Shown here piece after piece: positions 1,881 through 61,548 of a stretch of 64,000 bases of DNA. A program made the translations under genes and the position numbers. The first letter of the stretch is position 1. Every line of letters starts with the position of its first letter. The notes beneath the pieces are model-generated. The model had not been told where the DNA came from, did not search any database, and saw only the letters and a program-made list of their open reading frames with translations. Origin of the DNA: Hysterangium stoloniferum (lineage: Eukaryota > Basidiomycota > Agaricomycetes > Hysterangiales > Hysterangiaceae); assembly GCA_015178975.1 (NCBI GenBank), contig WHVD01000106.1, positions 124,001 through 188,000 of the forward strand. Direction: 5' to 3'.

Positions 1881-2935
1881 ATGGGTCCAAAACCCATGCC
1901 TCACAGACCAACTACAACACCTGGGCCTTCCATGGGTTCTCCTTATTGGGCCCTGCTCACTGCTGCCCAAATTTTGGTGCAGTGGGAGGGGCAATGCCAA
2001 CAATGGGAGGAAGCAGAGAGGATGGCCAAAGAGGCCAAGGAGGAGTTGGAGAGGGAGTACAAGGTGGCACTGGCCACAGAGAAAGAGGCTGAGGAGCAGA
2101 GAAAGAGAGATGAGGAGGTGGTGTGGGTTGCTGCGGAATGAGCCAGGGCAGCCACAGAGAGGGCCACAATCACCATGGGGAAGGTAAGTACCAACAATTC
2201 TCACATTTGACTTCACTAACTTTGTTTTTTAAAGTGGTAGGCAAAGTGGTAGAGGCCAAGTTGGAGTTGGAGGGGAGCTGGAGAGCCCACAAAAGGCAAG
2301 CCTTGGGTCCATCCATGGAGGTTTCTGGATACTGACCACATCAACAGAAAGCAAGGAGAACAGCTCCAGTCTGCTTGGAGGCAAAGAATGATCTACAGTG
2401 TTCCAGTTGCAATGACCAGAACACAGACTGTTACTGGAAGTCTGGGTGGGGTCTGCACCATAAAGCGAGGTGCTCACTGGTTTATGAGCCTATGGGGTCT
2501 GTGGGATGGGAAGCAGGTGGTCTAGCAGAAAGGCCTGGGGTGTTGGGATAACACCGTGAAAACCTTATCATCACATGTAAGGCACATAGACGGTCATCGT
2601 TCCCCGTGTGGTATTTAAACTGCGTAGTTACAACATTTACACCTCAGTCCATTACACACTAATACGAGACTGAGGTGAGTGTTGCTCTGTGTAGTATCTC
2701 TTTTACCTTTATATTAATTGTATATATCAGATACATATAGGTATATACATTAGTCCGTTACACACTAATACGAGACTGAGATACATATAGAGTTACCTTT
2801 CAACATGGGGCCCTGAAGGAGATTTTGGGGTGGATAGCATGGGCATAGAGGCCCAGAACCAGCTGCTTGAAGAGAGCAACTGGATGCAGGGGACTGTAGG
2901 GTACCAGGACAGGGTACCCGAGGAAGTGGTAGAAT
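1881..2935 (+). pseudogene. Antisense coiled-coil/Cys-cluster gene, Ty3-B copy
   Basis: The gene lies on the strand opposite to gag-pol. Exon 1 (1881-2183, 101 codons) starts MGPKPMPHRP and becomes a Glu/Lys/Arg-rich coiled coil, with one TGA at codon 87. It ends Gly-Lys before GTAAGT. A short acidic exon 2 (about 2241-2295) follows, with an eroded acceptor and a GC donor. Exon 3 starts at 2348 after AACAG and contains CSSCNDQNTDCYWKSGWG, then an Arg-Cys-Ser motif. The middle Cys-X2-Cys pair seen in Ty3-D is deleted here. A copia solo LTR interrupts exon 3, and the acidic tail resumes at 2816. Exon 1 has the same length as in Ty3-D. The function is unknown. The domain order of coiled coil, cysteine cluster and acidic tail would fit a nucleic-acid-binding regulator, but that is inference. 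Confidence 0.7.
2541..2815 (+). repeat. Copia-type solo LTR, TSD TGGGG
   Basis: A 275-bp sequence runs from TGTTGGGATAACACC to TTTCAACA and is flanked on both sides by TGGGG (2536-2540 and 2816-2820). The perfect 5-bp duplication and absence of internal coding sequence mark a solo LTR left by LTR-LTR recombination. It is related to the copia LTR at 54811-55196: both have TGTTGG.ATAACACC starts and CTCAGTCCATTA blocks. It disrupts the Ty3-B antisense gene. Confidence 0.88.
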
Positions 2936-5668: not shown

Positions 5669-6595
5669 TGTTACGACTGGACAATGTACATCATCACGCC
5701 CTACATGCACCAAATGTCTGTTTATAGGATTTCCCGCCTGGACTCCGTTACGTCAAGACTTGTTACATTTGACCTCATTATGACACATATCAGTCACCAG
5801 ACTTCCCCCAGACTCCGTCTCTGTCTATGTCCATCTCCGTCCCACGCATCAGTCACCGGACCCCACTCAGAATCCCGTCACCGCTCTAATCGAGCCCCAT
5901 TCCCATTTTAGTCAAATGACCTGTCACAATTTAGGACTCCGCTCCCGCTCCATTTCCCATTATGGGTTATGCTTTGTCACAATTCAGACTCTGCACCATT
6001 CCGTCCAGTTCCTAACACCAATTTGGTGTTTACTATTCCCGTTTTATGTTTTGTTAGTTTCGTTTCATTATTACTGGATTTGGTATGTCATTCACTCCAT
6101 GGTCTATATAAACTGGCAGATGTTGTACATACAATCCAGTAAGAAAATTAGCTTAGATTCCCCCCAGTAATCTAATAACATTTTCCACTCTAAAACCCTA
6201 CTTGATTTACACCGCTCGCACTAGTCGGAGCCCACAGGCTCCGGCACATCTATCTCTCTCAACTATCTCGACTCACAACCCACGACCCATGACCTCCAAC
6301 CCATGACCTCCAACCCACGACCTCCAACCCACGACCTCCAACCCACGACCTCCAACCCACGACCTCCAACCCACGACCTCCAACCCACGACCTCCAACCC
6401 ACGACCTCCAACCCACGACCTCCGACCTACGACCTATGACTCACGAACCCTGCCTGGACTCCCCGGGATTCCCGTCCGCCTGTTTGAAATTGGACAACAT
6501 GATCTAGTGAGGGCACAGCCTATAAGCTGAAGCCAAGTCCTACCAGATATCCTGTGGGTTTCTCTGGAGACCTGCCATGTGTGTGTATCCTAATA
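5669..6595 (+). repeat. Ty3-B solo LTR, 927 bp, TSD AGTTG
   Basis: It starts TGTTACGACTGG and ends TCCTAATA (a probable CA to TA change) and is flanked by AGTTG at 5664-5668 and 6596-6600. It lies opposite to the Ty3 fragment it interrupts. It contains a TATA box (TATATAAA, 6105-6112), an expanded 15-bp minisatellite (6275-6440) and the conserved U5 block at 6515-6542. It is the longest complete copy of this LTR in the window, so it is the best reference for the family. Confidence 0.9.
6275..6440 (+). repeat. 15-bp minisatellite inside the Ty3-B LTR
   Basis: About ten to eleven head-to-tail copies of a 15-base unit, ACCCACGACCTCCAA and close variants, lie downstream of the LTR TATA box and upstream of the U5 block. 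Because 15 is a multiple of three, the array gives open frames with a five-residue period on both strands. These are not genes. The same array, with a variant unit, is present at 15945-16108 and almost absent at 1060-1085 and 17198-17230, so the copy number is variable between LTRs. Confidence 0.9.
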
Positions 6596-8894: not shown

Positions 8895-8969
8895 ATGTCG
8901 GTTACACATATGTGTCAAAGAGTCATGTGATCTGGAAGGTAAGGTTCAGATGCAATGAACCTATAAAAA
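8895..8969 (+). promoter_or_regulatory. Promoter of the antisense gene, Ty3-D copy
   Basis: A CACATATGTGTCAAA element at about 8908, TCATGTGATCTGG at about 8924 and a TATA box TATAAAAA at 8962-8969 precede the ATG at 9021 by about 52 bases. The block is clearly homologous to the Ty3-B copy at 1738-1833, including the pyrimidine-rich TTTCTTCTTCTTT leader after the TATA box. Confidence 0.65.
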
Positions 8970-9020: not shown

Positions 9021-9970
9021 ATGGGTCCAAAGCCAACACCGTGAAGGCCTTTACCAACCGCCAGGCCCTCCACGGGCAACATTTACCGGGTGCCACTCAC
9101 TGCTGCCCAAAATTTGGCGCAGTGGGAGGAACAGTGATGACAATGAGAGGTGGAAAAGGAGGCCAGGGAGGTCGAGGAGGCCCTGGATAGTGAATACCAG
9201 GTGGCTTTGGCCATGGAGAAAGTGGCAGAGGAGAAAAGGAAGAGGGATGAGGAAGAGGCTGCATGGGTTGCCACGGAGAAAGCCCAGGTGGCTACAGAGA
9301 GGACCGCAGTAGTTGTGGGCAAGGTAAGTCCCTTATTTCAACTTGTCGTTTTTTTTTTTTGACTGACTTGGTGTTTTCAGTGCAAGGTGACAGAGGTCGA
9401 GTCAGAATCTGAGGGGGAGCCGGAGAGCCCCCAGAAGGTGAGCCTCGGGTCCATGGGAGTACCATGGAACTAACCATATCAACAGAAGGCAAGGAAGGCG
9501 GTACCAATCCACCTACCAGCTCGGAACAACCTGTGTTCCAGTTGTAATGACCAGAACACTGAGTGTAATTGGAAGTCCAGCTGGGGCCCAGGGTGCTATC
9601 AGTGCGTGCACCTCAAAGTGAGGTGCTCACTCATTCACGAGCAGCCCATGGGGTCCATGGCACAGGACAACAGTGGGTCGGATGGGTATTCCAGTCTGGA
9701 GGAGGTTTTGACATGGATCACCAAGGGCATTGAGGCCAGAACGAGTTGCTCCGGAAGAGCAACAAAGTACATGTGGTGATGGCCAATGATCTCCATGTAC
9801 TCCGCTTGGAAAATTACAAGTTCCTAGTGGAGCATGCCGGTTTTGTTTATGAGGAGCCGGAGGCTGGGAGTTCTGAGGATGCCAGGTCAGATGAGGATGG
9901 GGTGCCTACGGAAATAGTGGAGCTACCCGAGGAGATGGCTGAGGCGGGAAAAAAGGAGGTGGGGAAATAA
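9021..9970 (+). pseudogene. Antisense gene with coiled coil and Zn2Cys6-like cluster, Ty3-D copy
   Basis: Exon 1 (9021-9323, 101 codons) starts Met-Gly-Pro-Lys and continues as a charged coiled coil (EEKRKRDEEEAAWV), with a few TGA stops near its start. Intron 1 is 9324-9380 (GTAAGT...TTTTCAG). Exon 2 (9381-9437, 19 codons) reads CKVTEVESESEGEPESPQK. Intron 2 is 9438-9485 (GTGAGC...AACAG). Exon 3 starts KARKAV and then carries six cysteines spaced C-X2-C-X6-C-X9-C-X2-C-X6-C (9530-9605), which is the spacing of fungal Zn(II)2Cys6 binuclear clusters. A Leu-rich stretch and an acidic tail ending GKKEVGK follow. All splice phases are 0, as in Ty3-A. One frameshift lies near 9740. Expression and function are unknown; a DNA-binding or capsid-modulating role is only a hypothesis. 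Confidence 0.72.
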
Positions 9971-10187: not shown

Positions 10188-13100
10188 TGCAGTCAGAGAG
10201 GCGATAGTGGTCCAGGTTTGAGTGGGTAAGCTGCATGAAAGTCAGTAACAATTTCCATGGCATTACTGAGTTCCGTGGCCAAAATCCATGAAGTTTCTTC
10301 ATTGGTGCCCTTATAACCCGCCCACTTGACCAAGTAGAGCAGTTTACAAGTGCGTCAACGCTTGTCAATTTTCAAATCTAAAATTTGTGAGATTTCAAAC
10401 TTGGGTTCTCCATCAATAATGACTGGAGGGGGTGGAGATTGCACACAATCCGAGATAGTGTTAGCAGTACAAGGTTCTAACATAGAAACATGACATACCA
10501 AGTGGTAGTACCACACACATGCTATCCAGAAGCTGTAGGGTCCAAGAGACTGAACCTACTTGTGCGATTATTTCAAATGGACCTAAATATTTTCAGCAAG
10601 CTTTTTTGATGGACAGGTAGTCCGGATGAATTGAGCTTTGACAAAAACATGATTTCCAATTTTGAAGTTGGGTGGTGGGATCCGGTGTCTGTCCGCTGAA
10701 AGTTGGTATTGCTCTTAGGCGGACTTTATTGCAGTCCAGAGTTCCTCATGGAGCTCGTGGAGGTCCATGGTGAACTCTTGAGCATGAGCAGAGGCAAGAT
10801 TTTGTTCTGGATGTACTGTAATATTTGGATTATATCCTTTATTTGCAAAGAATGGGGAAACACCAGTAGTGGCCAAGGGTGCATTGTTGTAAGCAAATTC
10901 TGCAAGTGGTAACAAGGATTTCCAATTGTCCTGTTGATAATTGCAATATATGCAGAGGTATTGTTCCAATGTGTGAGAGGTATGGTGAAATACGCTCAGG
11001 AAATATAGTCTGGATAAGCCCATACTATATTCTCTTGATTATTTCTTCTTCTCTCTATTCTATTATACACTTATATTAGTTTGACGACCTATGTATGCAG
11101 TACATTGACTCTTGTGGGCACATACACGCCAGACTCATGTATTATAGCGCCCATAATTAGAACTCAGACACTTTTTTACCCCACAACCACGACTTACCCA
11201 GACACACAGTTAGTGTCCTGTAAGTCGTGATTGGGGTATTGTCTCGACCATCACAGACGGGCTTCAACTATCTACACAATCATAGTTTCGAACTGTGCCA
11301 GTCGAAACTCCATTTATATCTCAATCTGCACAGACAACATCCATGCTACTCTATCATCCAACTCTTGTTACTCTTTTCTACACTCGAGCAGTCATTCAGA
11401 ATCGCACCTAACGGTCAATTCCCTTTATTCATTTTAGCTATCTACTCTACCTTAGATAGTTACTTCCCTCAGACGTATTGAACTAGACAGTCAATATTTG
11501 TTCAGAGTGTATTGAACTTAGACAGTCAATACAACTACGTGTTGTACCTAAACGGTTGATATTCTTCATATATAGAACGGTTAGAACTTCCACTACTCTT
11601 CACACAATGTCTGATTGACGCGTTTGGTTTGTCCGTCACCTTCCGGGTGATGTCCGGATGTGAAATGTAGTTTCATGTCCAAGGATTTCCTGAGGGATCT
11701 AAAGAAGTGAGACACAAACTCTGATCCTCGATCGGAAGTTATGTGGGACGGAACTCCATGCTTGGAAAATATGTGGATAATAAAAAGTTCCACTAACTGC
11801 ACAGACATAATTGTATCATATGTAGGGATGAATATACCTTGTTTTGAGAGTCTATCAACAATAACTAGAATGACAGAAAAACCTTCAGAGTCTGGTAGGT
11901 GTTCAATGAAATCCATAGAGATAGAATTCCACAGGTGTTCCGGTACCAGGAGTTGTTTCAAAAGGAGTGGGGACAAGTAGTGCAAGATTTGCAATAGTGC
12001 TTAATGAATCCACAGAGTCCGGGCCAAGTATATTCTCTTCTTATTAATGATTGAGTTTTGTTGTACCCAAAATGTCCTGAGAGTGGATGATCATGTTTGT
12101 ACTGAAGGATCCTGAGGCGGAGGCCGCTGGAGTCCGGTACATAGATCTGATTGTCAAGTCTAATGAAACCATGCTGATCAAGAGACCACTGGGGTTGATC
12201 AGGGTCCACAGGATTGTCAAGGTGAGCTTTAGTAATCGGGGCCAGCAGAATTGCCGATAGAATATCTTGATGTAACTTCTCAATATCCATAATGATAATT
12301 CCATGGACAATGGGGTTGATGAGGAAAGTTGCATGGACCGATGCGGTAAGTTGCTGATTCATGAAAATAGGTTTCAGGTTGTGGGGGTTTACCGTGGCAT
12401 AGTCATTGCTCCCCTCTTTAGGATAGATGTCCCATCCTCTAGTTAAAGCATTGGGTTTGCCACTGAGACGGCCGGGTTGAAAACAGATAGTCATATTGAA
12501 AGCAGATAGATATTCAGACCAGTGGGCCTGCTGACGGGTCAAAAGTTTTGTGGTAGAAAAGTATTCCAGGTTTTTGTGATCTGTTACAACATCAATCGGA
12601 GTTCCCAAGCCTTCCAAATAGTGTCACCATGTTTTGAAAGCTGAAGAAATTGCCAGGAGTTCCTTATCATGAACGTCGTAGTTGAGCTCTGCTCCGGTAA
12701 AAGTCCAGGACAGAAAAGCCACGGGGTATACTTCTCCGTCAGAGTCCTGGGTAGACAGAATGGCTCCAAGTGCATAGTCCGAGGTGTCTGTTTCAACAAT
12801 GAGCAGGAGGTCCGGTTTCCAATGCGACAGAATAGGAGCTGAAGAAAAAGAATTTTTTAAAAGATTGAAAGCTTTTTGACATTTATCGTTAAAATTCCAT
12901 GGAGTAACCTTATGTGTAAGACAGGTAAGGGGAACTGTGATGTTGGAATATCCATGGATAAACCATCTGTAAAAATTGGCAAAGCTGAGGAAGGATTGTA
13001 TATCTTGAACCTTTCGGGGTTCAGGCCAATCTTTAATGACTTGCACTTTAGTTTCATCCATGCAGAGTCCGTCGGGTCCCATTATGAAGCCCAGGTATTC

Positions 13101-15848: not shown

Positions 15849-16732
15849 TGTTAGGGTACATACACAGTGGGTTCCAATTTCAGACAGGTGGACAGGAATC
15901 CTGGGGAGTCCGGGCAGGGTTCGTGGGTTGGGGGGTCATAGGTTGGAGGTCGTGGGTCGAGAGGTCGTGGGTCGAGAGGTTGTGGGTCGAGAGGTTGTGG
16001 GTCGAGAGGTTGTGGGTCGAGAGGTTGTGGGTCGAGAGGTTGTGGGTCGAGAGGTTGTGGGTCGAGAGGTTGTGGGTCGAGAGGTTGTGGGTCGAGAGGT
16101 CGTGAGTTGAGATAAATAAGAGAGATAGATGCATCGGAGCCCATGGGCTCTGACTACCATGAGCAGTGTAATTCAAGTAGGAGTTTAGAGCAGAAAATGT
16201 ATTAGATTACTGGGGGGAATCTAAGCCGATTTTCTGACTGGATTGTATGTACAACATCTGCCAGATTATATAGACCGTGGAATGAATGTCATACCAAATC
16301 CAGTAATAATGAAATAAAACTAGCAAAACATAAAATGAGAATAGTAAACACCAAATTTGGTGTTAGGAATGGGACAGAATGGAGCAGAGTCTGAATTGTG
16401 ACAAATCATAAACCATAACAGGCAATGGAGTGGGAGCAGAGTCCAAATTGTGACAGGTCATTTGACTAAAACAGGAATGGGGCTCTGTTAGAGAGATGAC
16501 GGGTTTTCCGAGTGGGGTCCAGTGACTGATGCATGGGACGGGGTCAGACATAGACAGGGACGGAGTCCAGTGGGTATTCCGGTGACTGAAACACAATGTA
16601 ATGAAGTCAAATGTAGACAAGTCTGATGTATGGAGTCCAGCAGGAATTCTGGTAAACTGACAATTGGTGTGTATAGGGTGTGGGTGTGCATAAGTTAGTG
16701 CCCGGAGTCCAGCGGGAATTCCCGTCATAACA
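15849..16732 (-). repeat. Ty3-D 5' LTR, 884 bp
   Basis: It starts TGTTAGGGTACATAC and ends GTCATAACA on the plus strand. It contains a TATATAGACCG-type core promoter (about 16268-16280, minus strand) and a 15-bp minisatellite of about eleven GTGGGTCGAGAGGTT units at 15945-16108. It lacks the U5 block with CATAAGCTGAAGCC that the other LTRs of the family keep, so the last part of U5 is deleted or replaced. Confidence 0.88.
15945..16108. repeat. 15-bp minisatellite in the Ty3-D LTR
   Basis: About eleven tandem units of GGTCGTGGGTCGAGA type. It sits at the same LTR position as the array at 6275-6440, but its unit differs at several bases, so the two arrays have been homogenised separately. It produces false ORFs rich in Val-Gly-Arg-Glu on one strand and Ser-Thr-His-Asp/Asn-Leu on the other. 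Confidence 0.93.
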
Positions 16733-26262: not shown

Positions 26263-26883
26263 TGTGAGTAATGGGACGTTGTGTTGTGCTTAATGTTGGG
26301 GTGCTAGATTTGGGCTGGCGTAGGACCTTCTGTGACTGCACAGCCATCAGCTCAGGTCCAGCTGCTTTTTCTCACGCACTTGCTGATTTTTTGTGATTTA
26401 TAGAACAAACATTGGTAAAAAAAATGAGGAGGTTGATGCTGGGTATTGGCGGTTCCAAATGGTGTCTGCAAGTCTTTGTGGATGTGATTGACCATGACGG
26501 AAAGAGAAATGACAAGAAGGGGAGTATGAAATTAGATTTAAGTGCAAGATAAAGGCCACCTTTGGGATCTCCGGCTTGGACTGGCCATTCTAAAATTGTT
26601 TACAATGTTTATTTTTATTTTTATTTTTATGTATTTTTGTGGAATAAAAAATAACATTGTCATGCTAATCCTACACAGGTGAAATTGGCATCTATGCGAG
26701 TGGCAGGTTAATAAAGAGCCAGTTGTTGATGGTTATGTGGCTTGAATGAAGGTCCGCAGTGTATAGGTTCTGTAGTGTAGTTGTAATTTTAACTTTCTTT
26801 ATGTATTTTGTATTAGTTGCAAATACTCTCTAATCTCTCTTGGTAGCGCATTCAATTCCCGTTTTAAACAATTATAATATTTA
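26263..26883. other. No gene seen
   Basis: About 620 bases with no recognised protein, LTR or repeat border. A (TTTTTA)-rich patch lies at 26605-26632. Confidence 0.5.
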
Positions 26884-27428
26884 CACATCAGGAGTTACAA
26901 CATTTAAGGTGGCACTAAAATATTATCTAAACCTGTTTACAAAACTTTAAGTCCTAAAATGGATTTGAACTCAGTTATTACCGCAATTTTAGACATGATC
27001 TGAACTTGTTGTTTAGGACACACTTTTACCAGAGTTTTTATTCTAAGTCCAGACAAATGTTTACCCCTTATAGAAACCTCAAGTCTGAACATAGGTTTAA
27101 AAATAAAATAAAACCCTAAGTTTTGCAATGACCTTAAACTAATTGCATGGGCAGGTGATGAGTGGGCAATTAGTTTAAGGTCATTGCAAAACTTAGGGTT
27201 TTATTTTATTTTTAAACCTATGTTCAGACTTGAGGTTTCTATAAGGGGTAAACATTTGTCTGGACTTAGAATAAAAACTCTGGTAAAAGTGTGTCCTAAA
27301 CAACAAGTTCAGATCATGTCTAAAATTGCAGTAATAACTGAGTTCAAATCCATTTTAGGACTTAAAGTTTTGTAAACAGGTTTAGATAATATTTTAGTGC
27401 CGCCTTAAATGTTGTAACTCCTGATGTG
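26884..27428. mobile_element. Palindromic foldback element, 545 bp, TSD TTA
   Basis: Two arms of about 263 nt (26884-27146 and 27166-27428) are inverted copies with only two mismatches noticed, around a 19-nt spacer (27147-27165). The ends are CACATCAGG...CCTGATGTG, flanked by TTA on both sides (26881-26883 and 27429-27431). The 3-bp TTA duplication resembles PIF/Harbinger-type insertion, but no transposase is present and the ends are not a family signature I recognise. Each arm carries the same 63-codon frame, which is just the palindrome read twice. Near-identity suggests recent formation. The transcript would fold into a long perfect hairpin. Confidence 0.85.
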
Positions 27429-27431
27429 TTA

Positions 27432-36720: not shown

Positions 36721-37490
36721 TATAAATAGTTTTGTAAGCTCTGAGAAGAGTGGGGGCATTACAAAGGTCGTTGCCATTTAACCAGGTGTCCTCTTCTGGT
36801 CCATATCCTTTCCATTGAATGTGGAAAAGGAGTCAATTTCAATGCTTTTTGTGTCCTACTATAGCCTCTACTTTGTACTCCTTGTCATTACAGTCTAGTT
36901 CCCGAGGATTTTCAAGTAGCACCCTTGATCCAAATTCCTTGGGGGAGAGATGGTACTTTTTAAGATGGTCTCAGTTGATCACTGGGTGGTAGGTATGAGC
37001 CACCACCTGAGTCCATTTAGACCATTCCTCTTTCGAAGAAGCACAGTATGCTCTGAGCATTTGCTCAATGATAGCATTGGTGTTCTCCATTTGATTGTCA
37101 GTTTGAGGATGATGGGATAAGGATACTGCGAGGGCACTTCCATATACTTTGCAGACCTCTCTCCAGAACCTACAGGTCCATCTCTTGTCTCAATCACAGA
37201 TTATCCTTGAGGGTAGGCCGAAGGGAGCAGCTACTTTATTCACAAAGATTTGCGTGAATCCTTCTGCAGATAGATCCGAGGTTGTGGGCTCACAAATTAA
37301 AAAATGCATGAGTTTATCCACAGCGACAAAGATGGCTGAGTGAGCCTCTGCAGAAGGAGGCAATCCGGTAATCAGGTCCATTGAGACAAACTCAAATGGC
37401 CTTAAGGGTACATCTGTGGGTCAAAGAGCTCCTTGTCGGGTGGAATGATCAACCTTAGTTTTTTGGCATATGTCACAGCTGCGAGCATAC

Positions 37491-38090
37491 ACCATGCAGT
37501 CCTTCAACATCCTTGGGCAGAAAAACCAGTCCTTCATCAGCTGGACCAGTCTGTGACCACCTGCATGAGCTCCTTCGAAGGGGTTGTCATGTATCAATTT
37601 GAGTATGGTTGACATCATGCTGCTAGGTATGCAGATTCGACTTTTCCAGTCCAAATCTCGAAAGAACAATAGCTCATTCTTGCTGATGAAATAATGCGAA
37701 GGGGTAGCTACCATGTTTGGGGAAATGGGATCGGCAGCGTAATGATTTCTGAAAGTGGGATCTTTCTGATATCCATTGTGAAGTTTTCACAGTTGCGAGC
37801 ATACACCATGCAGTCCTTCAACATCCTCGGGCAGAAAAACCGGTCCTTCATCAGTTGGAAAAGTCTGTGACCACCTGCATGAGCTCCTTTGAAGGGGTTG
37901 TCATGTATCAATTTGAGTATGGTTGACATCATGCTGCTAGGTATGCAGATTCGACTTTTCCAGTCCAAATCTCGAAAGAACAATAGCTTATTCTTGCCAA
38001 TGAAATAGTGTGAAGGGGTGGCTACCATATTTGGGGAAATGGGATCAGTGGCATAATGATTTCTGATATCCATTGCGAAGTTCCTTAGCA
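37491..38090 (-). repeat. 304-bp tandem duplication inside Ty3-F integrase
   Basis: The block starting GCGAGCATACACCATGCAGT at 37491 recurs from 37795 with scattered substitutions. Both copies encode the same zinc-domain segment (LDWKSRICIPSSMMSTILKL). Because 304 is not a multiple of three, the duplication shifts the frame. The divergence shows that it is not recent. Confidence 0.88.
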
Positions 38091-43203: not shown

Positions 43204-44181
43204 CTACAACCTCCCCTTCTTCCCGGCTTCTGAGATTTCCCCTACACTGACAGCCACTGAGACATCCTTCTCACCAACCTTCCCTGATGTCTCAACCCCT
43301 GGCCCACCTTCATCAGAACTCAACACCTTTAAATACTGTTTGAGTTGCCCTCCAAAATACTCTATGATACTGGTCTGTTTCTCCAGCCCCAAGCCCAATA
43401 ATCACAATTGTTCGGTGAATAGTGCTTGTTGTTGCAGTTGTTCATGTCAGAACCAACTTGTTTCAAAGAAATATGTGTGTAGGAGTCGGTTTTGCTCCCC
43501 CAATGTGTCTGCCTGCCACTCTTGATATGGCCCATTCCCATCAGTATCTGGGAAGACACAACTGAGTTTTTGATTCTTGGCATGTGTGGCCCCAACCACT
43601 GGCCCATGGATGGCAAATCTGACCTTGGTTAGTGCATCGATTTCACTTTAGTTGTTTTCAGACCCCACCTTGGGGGCCCATTTTTGTTTCTATAACTGAA
43701 AAATTAGAAAATTTAAAAAAAACTAAATAATAGAAGTCTGAACATACCTTAGGGCTTGAAGGCCTGGGGACTTCCTCCTTGTCCTCCCCATCCTCTTCAT
43801 CATCAAAATCTGATGGTGTTGCCACCTTGCACTGTAAAAGGATGTCAGTGAGGTTACAAGAATGAAGAATCCCCGACTTACTTTACCCTCCCATTTCTTT
43901 TTCACCTCCTCTTCTCACACCCAATCAGCCTCCCTCTGCTTCTTCTTCGCAAGCTCAGCTTCCCAATGCTTGCGAGCAGCCTCCTCCTCTGCCAACCTTT
44001 TCTCCTCTGCCTCTATCACTTTCAGCTCTTCCCTCTCCCTACATTCCTCCTCCTCATGCACCTTCTTCTTTTCTTCAAGAAGTCGTCGATGCTCTTGTGC
44101 ATTTGGGGGTCTGCTCAGATATGATATGGGGGTGATGGTTGGCCTGGATGGGAAAGGTCTTGATCCTGAACCCATGGTCAT
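43204..44181 (-). pseudogene. Antisense coiled-coil gene, Ty3-E copy (different C-terminus)
   Basis: Exon 1 (about 44175-43882) starts Met-Gly-Ser-Gly and is a Glu/Lys/Arg coiled coil (EEKKKVHEEEECREREELKV). It has a TGA at 43915 and ends Glu-Gly-Lys before GTAAGT. Exon 2 (43831-43748, 28 codons) starts CKVATPSDFDDEEDGED and ends SSPK before GTATGT. Its start CKV and end SPK match the Ty3-D exon 2. Exon 3 begins near 43670 (KQKWAPKVG), with several breaks, and ends ISEAGKKGRL at 43204; the AEAGKK-like end recalls Ty3-D. No Zn2Cys6-type cluster is visible here, so the third exon is either replaced or strongly diverged. Splice phases are 0, as in the other copies. Confidence 0.65.
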
Positions 44182-44185
44182 CGAG

Positions 44186-44300
44186 ATTGAAGGAAAAGAG
44201 TCAAAATCTCAAGCACCAGCACCCCTCAAGTTTTTATATGTAAATTTTTACCAGGTCACATGATGTCTTGACACACCCCGTACCCAACAAGTTTATGTAC
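44186..44300 (-). promoter_or_regulatory. Promoter of the antisense gene, Ty3-E copy
   Basis: On the minus strand, GTGTCAAGACATCATGTGACCTGG is followed by CATATAAAAACTTG (TATA box at about 44240-44231), roughly 55 bases before the ATG. The TCATGTGAYCTGG block is shared with Ty3-B and Ty3-D. Confidence 0.55.
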
Positions 44301-46852: not shown

Positions 46853-47400
46853 TGTTACGACCCATTCCCAGATGTTTCAATATCCGACTTCTGATCTCCG
46901 ACTACGGAACATCATAGTTACCGTATCTTCCACATTCTTCCCTTGTTCCACATTTGGTAATTTGTCCGTTGACAAGTATTCACTCGTTTGTTTATTATAT
47001 TCCCATTTCAGAATATTGTCTCCCTGATATGTCTTATTGTATTTCCATTTTAAGAATACTTCCATTTCCGTCTTATTATGGTCTTACATAGTTTGTAGTA
47101 CAATAATGAGAAGACTTATATTAGTTTCTGCGAATTTGTACTTTACCTTAGATCTGATATCGACTTAGTTTCTTATTCCTTCTTCTGTCTTTCTGTACAC
47201 TCGATATTTGGAACTCTTCAGAACTCTGAATATCCATATCTTCCATCGTAAGTCTCACTTCTGAAATTAAGGACTTTGAGTGTTTGCATAGAGGTGCAGC
47301 ACATAAGCTGAAGCCGACGTCCTGACCCTATCTGATAGTTCTTGACTTTCCGGTGACTTTCCGATAGTTCCAGAATAAGTTCCCGACACGGCACTTAACA
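46853..47400 (+). repeat. Ty3-A 5' LTR, 548 bp
   Basis: TGTTACGACC...CACTTAACA, preceded by GTGAG. It carries the U5 block (47295-47325) 75 bases before its end. The sequence after it, GTATATCAGATCTCAAC, contains TATCAGA as in the tRNA-iMet site TGGTATCAGAGC, but the match is partial, so priming is uncertain. Differences from the 3' LTR are almost all C/T or G/A changes, mostly at CpG. Confidence 0.92.
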
Positions 47401-47434
47401 GTATATCAGATCTCAACTCTGCGACTCGCTCATC

Positions 47435-48664: not shown

Positions 48665-51600
48665 GCAACCCTCCGGAATCTGCACAGACAGAGGTTGCAT
48701 TGACTCTCTCCATGTTTCTGAGGTTATCCATCTCAATGTGTCCACTCTCTCCAATCCTGATTCATTATTTGTAAAACTTGTCTCTGACTTTCTTGGAAAT
48801 TTAGTGTTCCGAGCTCTGATAGATTCCAGCTCCACACACTGTTTTGTAGATACCACCTTTGCCACGAAACATAATCTGAAACTCCATTCTGTTCCCGCAA
48901 TTTCCTTGTGTTTGTTTGACGGCACTAGCAATACAGCAATTACCCAAGCCTGTGACATGTCTATCCAGTTCCCTTGTGGAACATCCCAGATGGTTACTTT
49001 TTTCGTAACACAGTTGGACTCTAGCTGTTTGGTAGTTCTTGGATACAACTGGCTCACCCGATATAATCCATTGATTGACTGGGTATTGGGCAGTATTAAT
49101 TTCCAAATTCCCAACACTTCAGTTCCTCCTGCAGTGTCTCTTCCAGCCAACACCTTTTCGGCATCAACGGCATCAACGGCATCTCCGGCTTCTACTGAAA
49201 CCTCCGTGCCTCCAAAAATCTCTCTCATCAACGCTTCGGCATTTGTTAGGGTGAGTAAACTGGATGGTTCACAGTGTTTTTCGATCAGCTTAAAAGTTGA
49301 TGAAGCATCTGGACATTTTGCGACTCCAGAATTATCTGAGCTAAAAGCCGACCTGGAAGGAGTTCCTGAAAAATACCATGATTTCACGGACATTTTCAGT
49401 AAGCAAAAAGCTGACAGGCTTGCACCACATAGGCCCTACGACTTAAAAATCGATATTGAGCCCGGTTCAAACCCTCCGTTAGGACCTATTTACCCATTAT
49501 CCCAATCGGAACTTTTGTCTATTCAGGAGTTCCTGGATGAACATCTGTCGATGGGTTTTATCTGTCCCTCAAAGTCTCTGTATGGAGCACCCATCCTTTT
49601 CATCAGAAAGAAGGATGGCTCCCTTCGACTCTGTGTCGATTTCAGAGGATTAAATTCCATCACACAGAAAGATAAGTATCCACTTCCACTCGTTACCAAT
49701 TTACTCAATGCCCCACGGAAAGCTCAGATCTACACCAAAATAGACCTCAAACATGCCTATCATTTGGTCCGAATTGCCGAGGGCAATGAATGGAAAACTG
49801 CTTTTCAGACTCACTATGGATCCTTTGAATGGTTGGTTATGCCGTTCGGCCTTACCAATGCCCCTTCCACTTTTCAACGTTTTGTTAATGATATATTTTC
49901 CGACATGCTTGATGTATGTGTTATAGTCTATTTGGACGACTTTTTGGTATTTTCCGAGGATCCCACTCTTCACGATGAACAGGTCCGTGAAGTTTTCCGA
50001 AGACTCCATAAAAGCGGTCTTTTTGCCAACGGTAAAAAATGTTACTTTGACATGGATTCTATTGAATACTTAGGTTTCATTATCGGACCTGAGGGTCTCC
50101 ATATGGATGAAGCCAAGGTTCAAGTTGTCCATGATTGGCCCAAACCACGGAAAGTCAAGGACATTCAGTCATTTTTAGGTTTCGCCAACTTTGACTGTCG
50201 TTTTATTCAGAACTACTCGGATATTACAGTACCGCTCACTCATCTTACCCGTAAAACTCAACCTTGGGTCTTTGACAATAAATGCTGTTCCGCTTTTCAG
50301 ACTTTAAAAAATGCTTTCACTTCTGCCCCGATTCTTTCCCATTGGAAACCTGATGTTCCGATTATTGTGGAAACCGATGCTTCCAATTATGCAATTGCCG
50401 CAATTCTTTCCATTCAAGATTCCGACGGTGAAATTCATCCAGTCACATTCCTTTCTTGGACACTGAAAGTGTCCGAACTCAACTACAACATTCATGATAA
50501 GGAACTTTTGGCAATTTTTGAAGCTTTCAAACATTGGCGCCATTATCTCGAAGGTTCTGCAACTCCCGTTGACATTGTTACCGATCACAAGAATCTCAAA
50601 TATTTTTCTACCACTAAACTTTTGACCCGCCAGCAAGCCCACTGGTCCAAATTCCTTTCCGCTTTCAACATGATTATCCATTTCCAACCCGGACGTCTTG
50701 GTGGAAAACCAGATGCCATGACTCATAGATGGGATGTCTATCCTAAAGAGGGGGAAAGTAACTATGCCATTGTTAATCTCCATAACTTGAAACCAGTCTT
50801 TACAATGCAACAACTTTCTGCATCTATTCGAGCAACTTCCCTCTACTATCCAATTATGCGTAGCGTCATGATTATGGACATTGAGCAATTACATCAAGAT
50901 ATCCTTTCCACACTCACTTCTGATCCAGCTCTCAAGCCACACCTAGAAGTTCCTGACAATCCTGACCAACCCCAATGGTCACAAGACTCTCAAGGTTTTA
51001 TCCGTCTTGATGGACGTATCTATGTTCCAGATTCCAACAATCTCCGACTCTGCGTACTTCAGTACAAACATGATCATCCAATCTCTGGACATTACGGCAT
51101 TAACAATACTCTTGGTTTAATCCGTAGAGAATACACTTGGCCCAACCTCCGAGATTTCATAACCCAGTTCTGTAAGTCATGCACCACCTGCTTACGCTCT
51201 AAGACCCAGAGGCATAAGCTGTACGGCCTTCTCAAGCAACTCCCGATACCAGAAAAACCCTGGAACTCAATTTCCATGGATTTTATCGAACAACTCCCGA
51301 CTTCTGAAGGCTTTACATCCATTCTAGTTGTTGTGGATCAATTCTCGAAACAAGGCATTTTCATACCCACTCATGATACAATCACGTCCTTACAATTAGC
51401 GGAACTTTTCATTATTCACGTATTTTCCAAACACAGAGTTCCGTCTCACGTAACTTCCAATCGAGGCTCCAAGTTTGTCTCCCATTTCTTCCAGGCCCTC
51501 GGAAAAGCCCTCGACATGAAACTACACTTCATGTGAAGAGTGGCAGAAGTTCTGACTGTTCTATATACGAAGAAATGAGTAGAAAGGAAGAATATTGACC

Positions 51601-52815
51601 TATTCGGTGCAATATAAGAGAAAGTGAGAGAAGGAGCACGAGATGATGAAGGGGTCAACGAGTGCGATGGTTCAAGTGGAGGCCTCAACTGTTACAGTTC
51701 AAGGCCAGAAGTGTTAGATAGTTCAGATATTGCTACCTATGTAGTAGCTGACACGTTACCCTGATCACCGCTTGTAGTAGACCTAGTTTATGTCTTACGA
51801 GTGGTGGTTCTTGGGTTAAAGTGTGTCTGAGTTCTAATTGGTGCTGAGTGCACCCACAAGTATACACAATGCTTTGAACTAATGAAATGATGGAATATTC
51901 GAAGAATATAAAAGATAGATAAATATGAATAGAATGTGTAAAATATAAATAAAATAAAAGGAGTGTTTTACCACAATGAAACTGTGGTAAAAGCATACTC
52001 CTCACACTTCACCTCGGGATATCACCCAGAAGGTGATGGACAAACGGAACGTGTAAATCAAACATTGGAACAATATCTCCACATCTATTGCAATTATCAA
52101 CAGGACAACTGGAAATCCCTTCTTCCGATCGCAGAATTCGCCTACAATAACTCTCTGAATGCAACTACTGGCATACTGTATCTCCTTTTTTCGCCAACAA
52201 AGGCTATAATCTGAATCTCACTGTACATTCCAAACGAGATTTGGCTTCTGTCCATGCTCAAGAATTTATTACCGACCTCAACGGATTACATCAAGAACTT
52301 CGGAAAGCTATTTCTTCCACACAAGAATATTATCAACATTCCGCGGACAAAAACAGGATCCCGCCTCCTAATTTTAAAATCGGTGATCAGGTTTTTGTAA
52401 AAGCTCAATTCTTCCGTACTACCCGACCTTCTAAAAAACTCGCTGAGAAATTCCTAGGCCCTTTTGAAATTATAGATGGACTCTCCGACTTCCCAATAGT
52501 ATGCAAGCAGTTCACCCCATTTTCCACATTTCCATGTTAGAACCCTGTGTTCCTAACAAAATCCTGGAACATATTCAACCTCCGTCCCCTCCAGTCATCA
52601 TTGACAGAGAACCCGAATTTGAAGTTTCTGAAATTTTGGATTCTAAAATCGACAATCGCCAACGTACTTGTAAATTGCTCTATTTAGTCAAATGGGCAGG
52701 TTATGAAGGTACCGACGAGGAAACTTCATGGATATTGGCCACAGAACTTGGACACGCTATGGAAATTGTTACTGACTTCCACACAGCTTATCCAAGCAAA
52801 CCCGGACCTTTATGA
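48663..52815 (+). pseudogene. Ty3-A pol: protease, RT, RNase H, integrase, chromodomain
   Basis: A 932-codon frame (from about 48738 to 51536) includes protease FRALIDSSSTHCFVDTTF (48807), linker ADLEGVPEKYHDFTD, RT LCVDFRGLNSITQKDKYPLP and MPFGLTNAPSTFQRF with YLDDFLVFS (49928), RNase H ETDASNYAIAAIL (50370) and TDHKNLKYFSTTKLL, integrase zinc domain (ISGHYGINNTLGLIRREYTW...CKSCTTC, 51080-51190) and core ISMDFIEQLPTSEG. The catalytic stretch reads TSNRGSKF instead of TSDRGSEF (51453-51476). A solo LTR at 51532 splits the core; pol resumes at 52007 ([18 protein letters not shown]). Frameshifts follow near 52175 and 52485. The chromodomain (LVKWAGYEGTDEETSWILA, 52684-52740) ends at 52815. Intact RT but broken integrase. 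Confidence 0.92.
51532..52006 (+). repeat. LTR-T solo LTR, 475 bp, TSD CTTCA
   Basis: TGTGAAGAGTGGCAGAAG...ATACTCCTCACA is flanked by CTTCA at 51527-51531 and 52007-52011. It interrupts Ty3-A integrase. It is shorter than the copy at 10972-11604 because of internal indels. It is the innermost layer of a copia > Ty3-A > LTR-T nest, so LTR-T was active after Ty3-A. Confidence 0.93.
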
Positions 52816-52926: not shown

Positions 52927-54070
52927 CTATCTTAGAGTCTCTGATACCCCAAATCCACTTTCCATCCCAACTTCCATCTCATCAGCAACCTCCGCACTTT
53001 CCACCATATCCTGCACCTCTTCATCCTCACTCTCTGATACTTCCGGCCCATTTCCTGACTCCCACCTTTTTTCAACACATTCCGCCAATGGATCATTAGG
53101 CTGTTCCCGTGCCTTATCGGAAAATCTCTTGGATACTGCGATAACACCGATGCTAACCATTACCTTCTCCAGGAATTCGTTTTGCCTCCAGAAGTTCCGG
53201 ATCAACGAACGGAAACCTTTTTCCTGGATTTCATTATGGTGATCTAGTGTATCCCGCATTTTCATGACTTCCATCCCGATAAAGACTAATGCGTCAACGG
53301 TGTCCTTGAGGAGCTCCATGCCCGTACTATCCATTTTTGGCACCTCAGTTTCCACAACTTTGGCCGCTCCTGAACTTTCCACGTCATTAGCTTTCTGAGC
53401 CTTCTCACCTTTTGGAACCCTTTTTGAGGCAAGAGTGCACGGAAGTTTGAGAACTGCGCAGGGATAGCAAGTTCCACCCCATTTTACCTTCTGTTTCCAA
53501 CACGTCATATTCCGTATGGAACATCAATAACACGGATTGTCATGGACGACTTCCATCTGTTCCGGAGCCTTGACCTTTGGCTTCTGTTTCGGAAGTTAAT
53601 CAATTACTGGCCTTTTGTAGATGCACTTACTTTAGGACTCAAAGGTCCAGCCTCTCCCTCTACCTCCACCTCCACAGCTTTGCGCTGTACCCAATAGTTA
53701 TCGGTTGGAACCACGGAAACTTATGAATTGCACTTACCTTTCCTTCCCTTATCTCCTCACATTTTTTCGCCACCTCTGACTCCCGCTGTAACTTTTCCGC
53801 CTCTTCCTTCTTCTTCTGAGCCTCCGCCATTTTCTGGATCCATGCTTCTTTTTCCACCTTCACTCGCTCCAACTCCCATTTTTCCACCTCTTCCACGTCT
53901 TTCAACTTCTGCATCAACGCCTTTTCCTCCTCCTCCTGTCGTCGCTTCAACTCCTCCATCCTTTGTCGTTTTTGTTGAAGTTCTGCGACCTTCGACATTT
54001 TTTGAAGTATGGCAATTTCAGTATCTGAATCTTCCAGGGTAGTAATGAATAAAGGCCGACGAATCGACAT
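52927..54070 (-). pseudogene. Antisense gene with coiled coil and Zn2Cys6-like cluster, Ty3-A copy
   Basis: Exon 1 (54070-53738, 111 codons) starts MSIRRPLFITTLEDSD and is a long coiled coil (QQKRQRMEELKRRQEEEEKA), ending Arg-Glu-Gly-Lys before GTAAGT. Exon 2 (53684-53631, 18 codons) reads RKAVEVEVEGEAGPLSPK. Exon 3 (53583-52927) starts KPKVKAPEQM and carries cysteines spaced C-X2-C-X6-C-X10-C-X2-C-X6-C (about 53535-53450). One TGA (53526-53524) lies between the first two cysteines. Then come KRVPKGEKAQKA (basic), a helical body (KGFRSLIRNFWRQNEFLEKV) and an acidic tail ending GVSETLR. All splice phases are 0 and, apart from the one TGA, about 347 residues stay open: the best preserved copy. 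The role is unknown. The architecture fits a nuclear regulator encoded against the element's own 3' end, but this is inference. Confidence 0.75.
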
Positions 54071-54241
54071 GCAAGTTGTGGATAAAGAAACAAAAACATT
54101 AATTCGAATATTTGGAGGTTTTTATACTCAGAACAACAGCCGAAACTCTCACCTCCAGAATTGCATAAATTTCATGACACATAATAATCAGCCGTCGCTT
54201 CAATCACTCAGTACCTAATCGCCTCTATAGGATTTCAGCCT
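54071..54241 (-). promoter_or_regulatory. Promoter region of the antisense gene, Ty3-A copy
   Basis: On the minus strand, TTATGTGTCATGAAATTT (about 54185-54168) is followed by a TATA box, GTATAAAAAC (54127-54118), about 50 bases before the ATG at 54070. The TGTGTCATG-type block and TATAAAAA spacing recur in the other Ty3 copies. Confidence 0.55.
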
Positions 54242-54255: not shown

Positions 54256-54799
54256 TGTTATGACCCGTTCCCAGATGTTTCAATATCTGACTTCCGATAT
54301 CTGACTACGGAACATCATAGTTACCATATCTTCCGCATTCTTCCCTTGTTCTGCATTTGGTAACTTGTCTGTTGACAAGTATTCACTCGTTTGTTTATTA
54401 TATTCCCATTTCGGAATATTGTCTCCCTGATATGTCTTATTGTATTTCCATTTTAAGAATACTTCCGTTTCCATCTTATTATGGTCTTAGTTTGTAGTAC
54501 AATAATGAGAAGACTTATATTAGTTTCCGTGAATTTGTACTTTACCTTAGATCTGATATCGACTTAGTTTCTTATTCCTTCTTCCATCTTTCTGTACGCT
54601 CGATATTCGGAACTCTTCGGAACTCTGAATATCCATATCTTCCATCGTAAGTCTCACTTCTGAAATTAAGGACTTTGAGTGTTTGCGTAGAGGTGCAGCA
54701 CATAAGCTGAAGCCGACATCCTGACCCTATCCGATAGTTCCCGACTTTCTGGTGACTTTCCGATAGTTCCAGAATAAGTTCCTGACACGGCACTTAACA
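54256..54799 (+). repeat. Ty3-A 3' LTR, 544 bp
   Basis: TGTTATGACC...CACTTAACA, followed by GTGAG. It aligns end to end with 46853-47400, with one short indel (ACATAG near 47086) and scattered C/T and G/A differences. The U5 block is at 54691-54720. Confidence 0.92.
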
Positions 54800-54810
54800 G
54801 TGAGGAGGAG

Positions 54811-59480: not shown

Positions 59481-61350
59481 CTCTTATCGACCTTAATGTA
59501 TCGACCTACTATTAGTCGGCATGAACAGCTAATAGGCTGTTTTACCGCATTAAAGGGCGATGCCGGGGGTTACGAAGTCAGTATTTAATTTCCATTACAA
59601 TACATGAATTGTTCGACAAATCTGTAACAATGGTCTAAAGCCTCGGATAACCGGATATTACTAGAAGCCGAGGGTAACATCTCTTCGGTACGGCAGAATT
59701 CTCAACAAAAGATCACATATATTGAGCTAGATCTGTCTTGTGGCGTGTTCACCGGATCTTACCTCAACAACCAGAAATCTCAACTCTCGTTTCAAGAACC
59801 CCTTTATGTTATTCTATTTTTTGTATATGATCGATACACCGATGACGGTGCATGGGGTCAAATTCCACAGGACCAAATTGCAATATTATCTGAACCAATG
59901 GAGCAATTCGGTCTAAAGTGCCTTGAATTGCCGTCCTGAAATATTCAACTCGCAACTACCGTCGGACTGAGACAGACGAATAAAACAAAAATGCCTCAAT
60001 ATGATGGTATCCTTCCTCGAAGCCAAAACACCATACCCCTTCCATCCGGGTCACTGGCGACATACTGGGTTAAAGTTTGGAGATTGGGTTTCAAGTTAAC
60101 ATTCAAGCTCTCTTCACGTCGATCTCATTCCGGGAAATTTAATTGCTGTAAAAACATGGGTTTGACTATACATCTCCCTCGCCACGCAGCTTCTCTGTTA
60201 TTGAACCCAGTCGGATCTCCAAGAAATCCCCGTTCCCCAAGCTTTCTCCCGTGCGTAGACGTCTGAACCTACTATTTCTTCCACTCTACAACAGTAAGTG
60301 GATCCTTTAAGTATCCAACACAAAATGGTCCATTTCATTTCCTTTATAGCTAGATTATGCCATCTTCTCCTGTATTTAATCGTTTCTCTACTGTGTAGTT
60401 GTGAGTATTTTTCTTGTCTTAATGGAGCTTCCTGGTGTTTCAATGTTTAGTCCAAGTTTTTAAAACATTCAAGTACATTAAACCTCAGTAATCTGAAATA
60501 AGAATCAAAATATGCGTGTAAGTTATAAGACTGCAGTATAATAGACTGAGAAATCCCGCTACGTATCTACATGAGTAGCAAAATGACTTGAAGGAAAAAT
60601 TCGGATGGTACGATAGTCATATTTCCCCATCACGACAAAAGATAAAGTCTGATATTGCCCAACCTAAGACATTAATAGGCCTGGTAGGGCTTTAACGACA
60701 TTACTGATCAGAACCGAAATCTTATTGATATCGATGGCTTTAAATGTGACGTTGCCAGTAATACACCGAGGTCCAAGCGCAACCAATATTGTGAGATCGC
60801 TATGCGAGTGAAAGATGTAAAAAACACAGACTCTTACTTGTAGAGAAATGTTTTGACTCGGAATTGCAACGCCAATTCGACCGACAGGCCGTACGAGTCG
60901 TTGGATGTGAATGTAGTGAAACGGATATCATTACTAACGGACCCTTTTGAATGACTCACAAGTCGTGAAGAGTCAAATGCAAGCGACGTGTGGAAAAGTC
61001 ATATTGGGTCGAGCTCCATCACATTATGCCCCGGTCCATCTAAAGTCTTCGAGGACCGCCCTACTAGGTTGTAATCGCTTTTAAAACAGCGAGGTGATCG
61101 ACCAAAACAGGGCATCGGCGTTTAGTGTCAGTATGGAGTTCCCAAGGTCCTACCACAGATAGACCTTCTACATCAATGGATCTGCTGGCTACTGCTTTAC
61201 TGCTACATCAGAAGAACGCCGGACTCGATACAGAACGCTTGCCTACTCCTGCTGGTTGTGAGGTTTCCCAGCCAGTATTCACGAAGAGGGTTAGTACTTA
61301 TGATTGCGGTGACACGGTATGGATGCGAGTCTTGGAGTATGTTAGGTGAT
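59481..61350. other. Unique DNA, weak frames only
   Basis: Plus frames at 59745-59939 (SFQEPLYVILFFVYDRYTDD), 59991-60266 and 61125-61349 (ending VSTYDCGDTVWMRVLEYVR) are protein-like in places, but I recognise no family and no splice chain. They may be copia remains continuing from 59 kb or broken host exons. Confidence 0.35.
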
Positions 61351-61354
61351 CAAA

Positions 61355-61548
61355 CGAGTGCTTGAATACCTAGGACAGAGGACTTCGAGGAAACTTGAGA
61401 CTGGAGTAGTATTTGAAGGAGATTTTCCACCCCGTATGTTTGATTAATCATCGAGTGCTTGGATACCTAGGACAGAGGACTTCGAGGAAACTTGAGACTG
61501 GAGCAGTATTTGAGGGAGATTTTCCACCCCGTATGTTTGATTAATCAT
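61355..61548. repeat. 97-bp tandem duplication
   Basis: The unit starting CGAGTGCTTG at 61355 repeats at 61452 with only a few substitutions and ends with GTTTGATTAATCAT in both. Near-identity suggests a recent duplication or gene conversion. Confidence 0.9.

Follow-up and report, generated by a model that had tools for sequence, protein, structure and literature searches.

Sequence comparison confirms that a real gene, modelled as three exons, lies antisense between the pol chromodomain and the 3' LTR of Ty3-type retrotransposons in Hysterangium stoloniferum, and comparison of its copies shows that it is coding and under purifying selection. With modest confidence, we favour the interpretation that this dedicated minus-strand accessory gene encodes a nuclear regulator, which would act in trans on the LTR of its own element. 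The window that we analysed is a stretch of 64,000 nt with four copies of the gene, and the wider comparisons covered 111 Mb in 554 contigs, representing one genome of one species.

Organisation of the antisense gene

The interval 52927-54070 is part of a plus-strand Ty3-type element that we named family B. The three other families are designated by their window intervals, as 9k (9021-9970), 43k (43204-44181) and 1.9k (1881-2935). The features of the family-B element are as follows.

46853..47402, plus strand: 5' LTR; identity with the 3' LTR 94%
48738..51536, plus strand: pol, open part (932 aa)
52543..52812, plus strand: pol, chromodomain end, convergent with the antisense gene; dN/dS 0.26
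52927..53583, minus strand: exon 3, with zinc-cluster motif and acidic C-terminus; dN/dS 0.26
53437..53532, minus strand: Zn2Cys6-type motif C-x2-C-x6-C-x10-C-x2-C-x6-C, with an in-frame stop inside it in the window copy
53584..53630, minus strand: intron 2, GTAAGT...ACAG, 47 nt; GT in 40/40 and AG in 38/40 copies
53631..53684, minus strand: exon 2, small and acidic, ending SPK, 54 nt; dN/dS 0.17
53685..53737, minus strand: intron 1, GTAAGT...ACAG, 53 nt; GT and AG in 40/40 copies
53738..54070, minus strand: exon 1, charged N-terminal region, 333 nt; dN/dS 0.21
54119..54126, minus strand: TATAAAAA box, 56 nt upstream of the antisense ATG
54256..54801, plus strand: 3' LTR, bearing conserved TTCCG/CGGAA words

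The corresponding features of the other three families are these.

1881..2183, plus strand: 1.9k exon 1 (decayed copy)
2348..2935, plus strand: 1.9k exon 3 region; cluster partly deleted, repeat inserted at about 2537-2809
8962..8969, plus strand: 9k TATAAAAA box, 59 nt upstream of the ATG
9021..9323, plus strand: 9k exon 1, with stops in the window copy; dN/dS 0.25
9381..9437, plus strand: 9k exon 2; dN/dS 0.19
9486..9776, plus strand: 9k exon 3, open start; zinc-cluster motif at 9534-9626, six Cys in 26/28 copies
10205..10474, minus strand: 9k-family pol chromodomain
43204..43689, minus strand: 43k exon 3 region, frameshifted in the window
43748..43831, minus strand: 43k exon 2
43882..44181, minus strand: 43k exon 1
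44231..44238, minus strand: 43k TATAAAAA box, 57 nt upstream of the ATG

As the initial annotation had described, exon 1 ends in GK before GTAAGT in all four window copies, exon 3 starts with K-x-(R/K) (KPK, KAR, KQK and KAR), and the phases are 0, which we found for all three exons of family B. The pattern (C/R)K...SP(Q)K given for exon 2 is present in B, 9k and 43k, while the 1.9k exon is recognisable but frame-shifted. An exon 1 of 303 nt, presented as a shared feature, does occur at 9021-9323 and 1881-2183, but it means little since 306 nt is the commonest length among 9k copies. Exon 1 had also been called a charged coiled coil; it is indeed 47-60% charged, but its score on a crude heptad measure was no better than that of shuffled sequences, being equalled by 213, 383 and 276 of 500 shuffles. 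The location opposite pol, claimed for all four copies, applies to B, 9k and 43k. The 1.9k copy has no adjacent pol of its own, the sequence adjoining 1881-2935 being a fragment of a family-B-type element, and its antisense orientation is presumed from its likeness to the 9k relatives.

All four window copies are decayed. The family-B copy has a stop within the zinc cluster, the 43k copy an exon 1 stop and a frameshift ahead of the cluster, the 9k copy exon 1 stops and a frameshift late in exon 3, and the 1.9k copy a deletion in the cluster together with the insertion of a repeat of ∼270 nt. When the exon model was projected on the family-B copies, 2 of 40 carried a stop-free gene, and a further genomic copy of 43k (L088) has a motif uninterrupted by stops. 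The ∼270-nt repeat in the 1.9k exon 3 (window 2537-2809) has at least 23 other copies elsewhere in the genome at 90-98% identity, and is therefore probably a recent SINE- or MITE-like family.

Coding potential and selection

Family-B copies were obtained by a DNA search (41 matches at 40 places; the best 40 of 368 candidates), and the exon model was projected on all of them. Codon tests used 38 family-B copies, and dN/dS in the 9k family was calculated from 28. The codon tests exclude L009 and L049, which are identical to window copies, L042 and L048 on account of truncation or interruption, and L074 and L077, which contain long insertions; the counts of splice sites and cysteines across copies leave out L009, L049, L074 and L077 but take in L042 and L048. 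The 43k sample comprised the window copy and two pieces of 231 nt, and the 1.9k sample eight loci.

In the annotated frame, Nei-Gojobori dN/dS for family-B exons 1, 2 and 3 was 0.21, 0.17 and 0.26, against 0.58-1.06 in the two shifted frames (38 copies). The 9k family behaved similarly, with 0.25, 0.19 and 0.24 in the annotated frame and 0.77-1.27 in the shifted frames (28 copies; for exon 3, the first 270 nt). The family-B pol chromodomain in its own frame gave 0.26 (36 sequences), and the antisense gene is thus as conserved within the family as this part of pol (0.17-0.26 versus 0.26). The initial annotation had held that values near 1 between families would refute the gene; among copies within families B and 9k, the annotated frame gave 0.17-0.26. 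Since these figures mix selection during transposition with later neutral decay, the true constraint is probably stronger than they indicate.

Variation by codon position was consistent with these values. Third positions were the most variable in all three family-B exons (38 copies), and shared transversion sites at codon positions 1, 2 and 3 numbered 3, 3 and 11 in exon 1 (p 0.02) and 10, 4 and 23 in exon 3 (p 0.0005); exon 2, with 0, 0 and 1 (p 0.37), had too few variable sites. The same counts showed no codon-position pattern in the family-B introns and flanks (38 copies). In intron 1 (53 nt), transitions were commoner at the nominal third position and one pseudo-frame had a lowish dN/dS of 0.39, which tells against the gene; flank pseudo-frames gave 0.50-0.91. 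Indels in family-B exon 3 were mostly multiples of three.

We considered whether the frames might be open by composition, or mirror coding on the sense strand, in which case there would be no gene. The sense-strand frame that mirrors the annotated one has a dN/dS of 0.39 over exon 1 and 0.30 over exon 3 in family B, as would suit this explanation, but its values are low because its third positions coincide with those of the annotated frame, which is the lower of the two, and its stops per copy number 3.0 in exon 1 and 3.4 in exon 3, compared with about 1.2 and 0.45 in the annotated frame. Stop counts in exon 1 cannot alone settle the frame, given that another antisense frame of family B has 1.11 stops per copy versus 1.18 in the annotated frame, and that one sense frame of 9k has 0.29 versus 1.46. 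The annotated stops, however, are mostly of one kind: 55 of 71 in family B fall at CGA codons and 8 at CGG (63/71), as do 25 of 46 in 9k at CGA, so most of them reflect CpG decay after insertion and not the absence of a gene. GT-AG sites, a TATA box and the cysteines are, moreover, conserved between families. The codon-position pattern, frame-specific dN/dS and stop counts together confirm more than chance, and contradict the possibility, raised in the initial annotation, that the frames are open only by composition. A chance open reading frame was accordingly rejected on frame-specific dN/dS, stop counts and the conserved GT-AG, TATA and Cys features, and we regard it as barely credible.

It could also be that the selected product is the antisense RNA itself, as a trigger of dsRNA formation or through interference with the sense transcript, and that the open frames are by-products. 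Any such transcript would be complementary to the genomic RNA in its 3' region, and RNA-based antisense control is known for Ty1 (PMC12786077). An RNA function would not favour one reading frame, however, and we mark this alternative down as very improbable in view of the frame-specific dN/dS in three exons of two families, the six conserved cysteines and the predominance of three-nucleotide multiples among the exon 3 indels of family B.

Splice sites and promoter

The conservation of splice sites predicts that the antisense transcript is spliced. In addition to the family-B counts given above, GT-AG was retained in 24/28 copies of 9k for intron 1 and 26/28 for intron 2. On the genomic RNA these introns would read CT...AC and should therefore survive transposition, in agreement with the initial reading. 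Each window copy has a TATA box, TATAAAAA or TATATAAAAA, ahead of the ATG, at a distance of 56 nt in B, 59 nt in 9k and 57 nt in both 1.9k and 43k; it lies outside the 3' LTR, just on its inner side. The earlier description of a conserved, spliced antisense gene is thus upheld by selection, splice sites, promoter position and linkage to pol (below), with splicing itself being predicted from the sites.

A zinc-cluster motif in exon 3

Exon 3 contains the motif C-x2-C-x6-C-x10-C-x2-C-x6-C in families B and 43k, and a variant with x9 in 9k and 1.9k. Fungal Zn(II)2Cys6 proteins have the consensus spacing C-x2-C-x6-C-x5-12-C-x2-C-x6-8-C, which the cysteines of all four families fit. An alignment of ten natural sequences picked for open reading through the cluster (three from B, four from 9k, two from 1.9k and one from 43k) shows no variation at the six cysteines, at a Gly located three positions ahead of Cys4, at a Lys lying between Cys5 and Cys6, or at a Pro that follows the cluster. 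Among copies not picked for open reading, all six cysteines were kept in 39/40 of family B and 26/28 of 9k. Basic residues are usual in the first half of a Zn2Cys6 cluster, and the first half here is poor in them.

The Pfam family Zn_clus (PF00172) was listed for 8 of the ten exon 3 sequences at E up to 10, with a best E value of 7.5e-4 and 20.0 bits against a cutoff of 21; the curated cutoff was never reached, and several matches cover only part (half) of the motif. No PF00172 match was listed for the 43k exon 3 peptide at E up to 10. At E up to 10, a profile built from the ten sequences listed nine different PDB sequences, headed by LEU3 (E 0.095), and six of the nine are Zn2Cys6 regulators (LEU3 twice, Pho7, C27B12.11c, PPR1 and LAC9). 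A single-sequence PDB search gave no match, and an AlphaFold prediction from one window sequence in single-sequence mode was uninformative (pLDDT 41). Taking the spacing together with profile scores that are individually weak, we consider a Zn2Cys6-type fold of exon 3 likely. The motif would have been hardly visible in the initial annotation, the cluster being a site of damage in three of the four window copies.

Across the exon 2/3 junction, a final K of exon 2 is followed by K-x-(K/R) in 38/40 copies of B, 28/28 of 9k and all five 1.9k loci, of eight, that could be read by script. The sequence K(K/R)x(K/R) is a simple nuclear-import pattern, and the basic patch at the junction fits a nuclear-import-like role.

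Searches of viral contigs gave 22 pattern matches and no relative. Within the genome, PF00172 matches occur at 42 places. On contigs C56, C113, C115 and C209 they are clustered, some with equal open-frame length (C115:74673-75050), as if tandem zinc clusters lay in one protein, and these loci are possible host relatives of the antisense gene.

Linkage to pol and divergence between families

We scored the best 150 of 1291 candidates for the 9k exon 3 and the best 150 of 312 for the 43k zinc cluster, and for the chromodomains of the two types the best 150 of 1836 and the best 150 of 1580 candidates. A 9k-type chromodomain lay within 1.5 kb of 41 of the best 150 9k exon 3 matches, in all 41 cases on the opposite strand and downstream, and 90 of the best 150 43k matches had a chromodomain of their own type within that distance, 89 of them on the opposite strand. 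Over both sets, 131/300 matches had a scored chromodomain within 1.5 kb, of which 130/131 were antisense; 169/300 had none among the 150 scored per type. Pairs of exon 3 with a chromodomain of the other type numbered 0 and 1, with ∼0.6 per set expected by chance. Since same-type pairs abound and cross-type pairs are limited to these, the gene travels with its own type of pol. In family B its position is similarly constant, with the chromodomain found at 35/39 other loci and the start of the 3' LTR at 39/40.

Pol pieces of the other families are mostly 64-84% identical to those of B, compared with 21-32% for exon 3 (over the parts compared), indicating that the accessory protein evolves faster than pol. 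For 9k-type exon 3, 117 of the best-scoring 150 matches were stop-free and 19, counted by eye, had exactly the same score, which fits a young family. Among the chromodomain matches scored, seven were open over 1304 aa; five of these had a listed exon 3 match adjoining, stop-free in 5/5, so the gene was kept through what looks like a recent expansion. Several of the identical-scoring exon 3 copies are situated within a few kb of contig starts, as a result either of subtelomeric bias or of assembly breaks at a young family.

These data bear on the possibility that a host gene was captured by the element, or is nested in it, and that the element has no gene of its own here. Fungal hosts have many Zn2Cys6 genes, and the PF00172 matches at 42 places in this genome would suit such an origin. 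The gene nevertheless keeps its position and orientation across families B, 9k and 43k, and the contrast between pol (mostly 64-84%) and exon 3 (21-32%) makes it look old and inherited with the element. We therefore consider a host gene improbable; an ancient capture at the origin of the element is possible.

Short words in the LTRs

The most enriched 5-mer of the family-B 3' LTR is TTCCG/CGGAA, with 9 occurrences versus 1.0 expected, a number reached by 0/300 dinucleotide shuffles. The 5' LTR has 4 versus 0.8 expected, reached in 2/300 shuffles, and its top words, TTCTG and TTCCA, are CpG-decay products of TTCCG. In 37 of the 40 family-B LTR copies (3 were left out), 13 words that are TTCCG/CGGAA or a decay form of it occur in at least 80% of copies. 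They occupy 12 places, two of them overlapping in one TTCCGGAA palindrome. The next of the 64 NNNCG words has 5 conserved occurrences, and the sum over words is 67.

The family-B element as a whole contains 50 TTCCG in 7.9 kb, and the remaining 56 kb of the window 72. CpG numbers 269 in the element and 1306 in the rest, so the excess is partly one of CpG content, although CpG is raised 1.5-fold and TTCCG about 5-fold. TTCCG is also enriched in family-B gag-pol (24 versus 9.7 expected) and is thus not confined to regulatory DNA; in the gap between pol and LTR, 8 of 13 sites fall in exon 3. In the 9k LTR, examined in 16 of 29 copies (13 were left out), the signal is modest: CTCCG/CGGAG leads with 8 of 69, followed by 5 for each of two words, one being TTCCG. 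The CTCCG/CGGAG words lie in repeated GGACTCCG blocks, and a CGG-N3-CCG palindrome, CGGACTCCG, occurs in the 9k LTR. The 43k LTR region, represented by one decayed copy, has no prominent CpG word. A family-specific short motif has therefore accumulated in its own element in family B (TTCCG) and, modestly, in 9k. Because Zn2Cys6 proteins usually recognise CGG triplets, the CGG-containing words of the LTRs are plausible candidate binding targets.

The window contains further repeats. Minisatellites of 14 and 15 nt, of similar unit and opposite orientation, are found at 6243-6466 and 15916-16140, and the 9k LTR copies contain GACCTC/CGACC units resembling them. A near-perfect inverted repeat at 26883-27429, with two arms of 264 nt that are 99% complementary and 19 nt apart, looks like a hairpin or foldback element. 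There are direct duplications at 37473-38066 (280 nt, 94%, 314 nt apart from start to start) and 61337-61530 (97 nt, 90%, tandem).

Proposed role of the antisense protein

According to the interpretation that we favour, an antisense mRNA would start at a TATA promoter belonging to the gene itself, on the inner side of the 3' LTR, and lose two small introns. The predicted protein would comprise a charged N-terminus, a short acidic exon, the basic KKx(K/R) patch, the cluster of Zn(II)2Cys6 type and a C-terminal tail that is acidic; it would enter the nucleus and bind CGG words repeated in the LTRs of its own element (TTCCG/CGGAA in B), and would thereby alter, in trans, how the LTRs of every family member are transcribed or silenced. 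Coding, selection, splice sites, TATA box, Cys spacing, linkage to pol and the family-B LTR words are read from the DNA, and from them we infer that the gene is transcribed and spliced and that its product binds zinc and DNA, reaches the nucleus and has the LTR as its target, on which it may act as an activator, as a repressor or as a protection from silencing. The initial annotation had already proposed a trans-acting regulator, and the Zn2Cys6-type motif, the KKx(K/R) junction and the LTR words strengthen that proposal, its expression and binding being putative. The CpG-dominated decay of family B (copies L009-L048) suggests DNA methylation of the elements, and such heavy decay, suggesting as it does a methylation-like pressure, makes an anti-silencing role attractive.

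The gene may instead be coding while its protein acts elsewhere, on host transcription, chromatin, RNA packaging or particle import. All of the coding evidence fits this equally well, a Cys cluster of such spacing need not bind DNA, and the proteins of plant antisense aORFs are without known function (PMC7264820). On the other hand, the word enrichment in the family-B LTRs fits a self-target, and exon 3 types track their own type of pol. We hold a different target to be somewhat unlikely, though to be taken seriously.

Comparison with known systems

Antisense genes between pol and the 3' LTR are known already, from plant elements and from fungal Boty. The plant antisense aORFs include Grande gene23, RIRE2, Retand TRP28 and PvRetro13, and among them Grande gene23 has a promoter of its own, its product being nuclear (PMC7264820, PMC11963269). 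The gene described here has the traits of this class (aORF-3R), being placed between pol and the 3' LTR, antisense to gag-pol and conserved like the element proteins, although exon 3 diverges more than pol when families are compared, in contrast to the within-family dN/dS. It has introns, whereas the main text of PMC7264820 and of PMC11963269 mentions none for the plant aORFs. Retand belongs to a non-chromovirus lineage (PMC11963269) and has a TRP28 domain, in place of which the gene here has a Zn2Cys6-type motif. Membership of the Retand TRP28 group was rejected: with matches listed at E up to 10, Pfam gave PF04195 (Transposase_28) neither for the one complete family-B protein scanned nor for exon 3 peptides of the four families.

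The nearest fungal case is brtn, the additional antisense gene of the Boty-like chromodomain elements of Botrytis cinerea (PMC8365987, PMC4227169, PMC5987419, PMC7264820), which is counted among the antisense genes between pol and the 3' LTR (PMC7264820). Both are fungal Ty3/gypsy elements with a chromodomain and an additional antisense gene; the host of Boty, however, is an ascomycete, and the likeness is drawn from descriptions in later papers, not from sequence. The source paper for brtn is said to be Zhao et al. 2011, Virology 417:248.

HTLV-1 HBZ, to which the initial annotation had likened the gene, is a bZIP protein encoded by an antisense gene at the 3' end of a retroelement, and a nuclear regulator, which the protein here is predicted to be. 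The likeness holds for the layout and fails for the protein, which has a Zn2Cys6-type motif instead; Pfam listed no bZIP family for one full-length family-B protein. Homology with HBZ was rejected on this ground and on a heptad score no better than shuffles. The HTLV antisense promoter, furthermore, is within the 3' LTR (PMC11963269, PMC7264820), whereas the TATA box here is outside it.

With the fungal Zn(II)2Cys6 regulators (PF00172; LEU3, PPR1, LAC9) the gene shares the spacing of six cysteines and weak profile matches over the cluster. It differs from them in scoring below the Pfam cutoff, in a conserved Lys in the second half and in a first half poor in basic residues. The charged segment here is N-terminal to the cluster, which is not the usual arrangement of segments in these regulators.

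A working model is offered by the VANDAL elements, which are DNA transposons. The VANC proteins of Arabidopsis VANDAL elements are anti-silencing proteins whose short motif has accumulated in their own family and is rare elsewhere, mainly in non-coding DNA and often as tandem repeats (PMC5735166). Family B likewise combines an element-encoded protein with a family-accumulated short motif (TTCCG), although this motif is enriched in coding DNA too. By this analogy, we tentatively suggest, as a possibility short of an expectation, that each family may have a fast-evolving Zn2Cys6-type factor matched to a CGG word multiplied in that family (TTCCG in B; CGGACTCCG in 9k), which would open or close sister copies and co-evolve with its word as a counterpart of VANC.

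The initial annotation knew of no Ty3 equivalent with this make-up. Antisense genes do exist there, in plant elements and Boty; among the titles and abstract openings listed from the open-licence literature there was no mushroom or Zn2Cys6 case of an antisense element gene. As far as our searches show, the novelty consists in the three-exon structure, the zinc-cluster motif, the LTR word and the fact that a single fungus has the gene in four families of chromoviruses. The function of antisense genes at the 3' end of LTR retrotransposons is an open question (PMC7264820). The present gene has a DNA-binding-type motif, a fixed TATA position and introns, which mark it as an mRNA gene; selection on it can be measured, and the element that carries it contains a candidate target word. 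With it, the old question of what such antisense genes do becomes directly testable.
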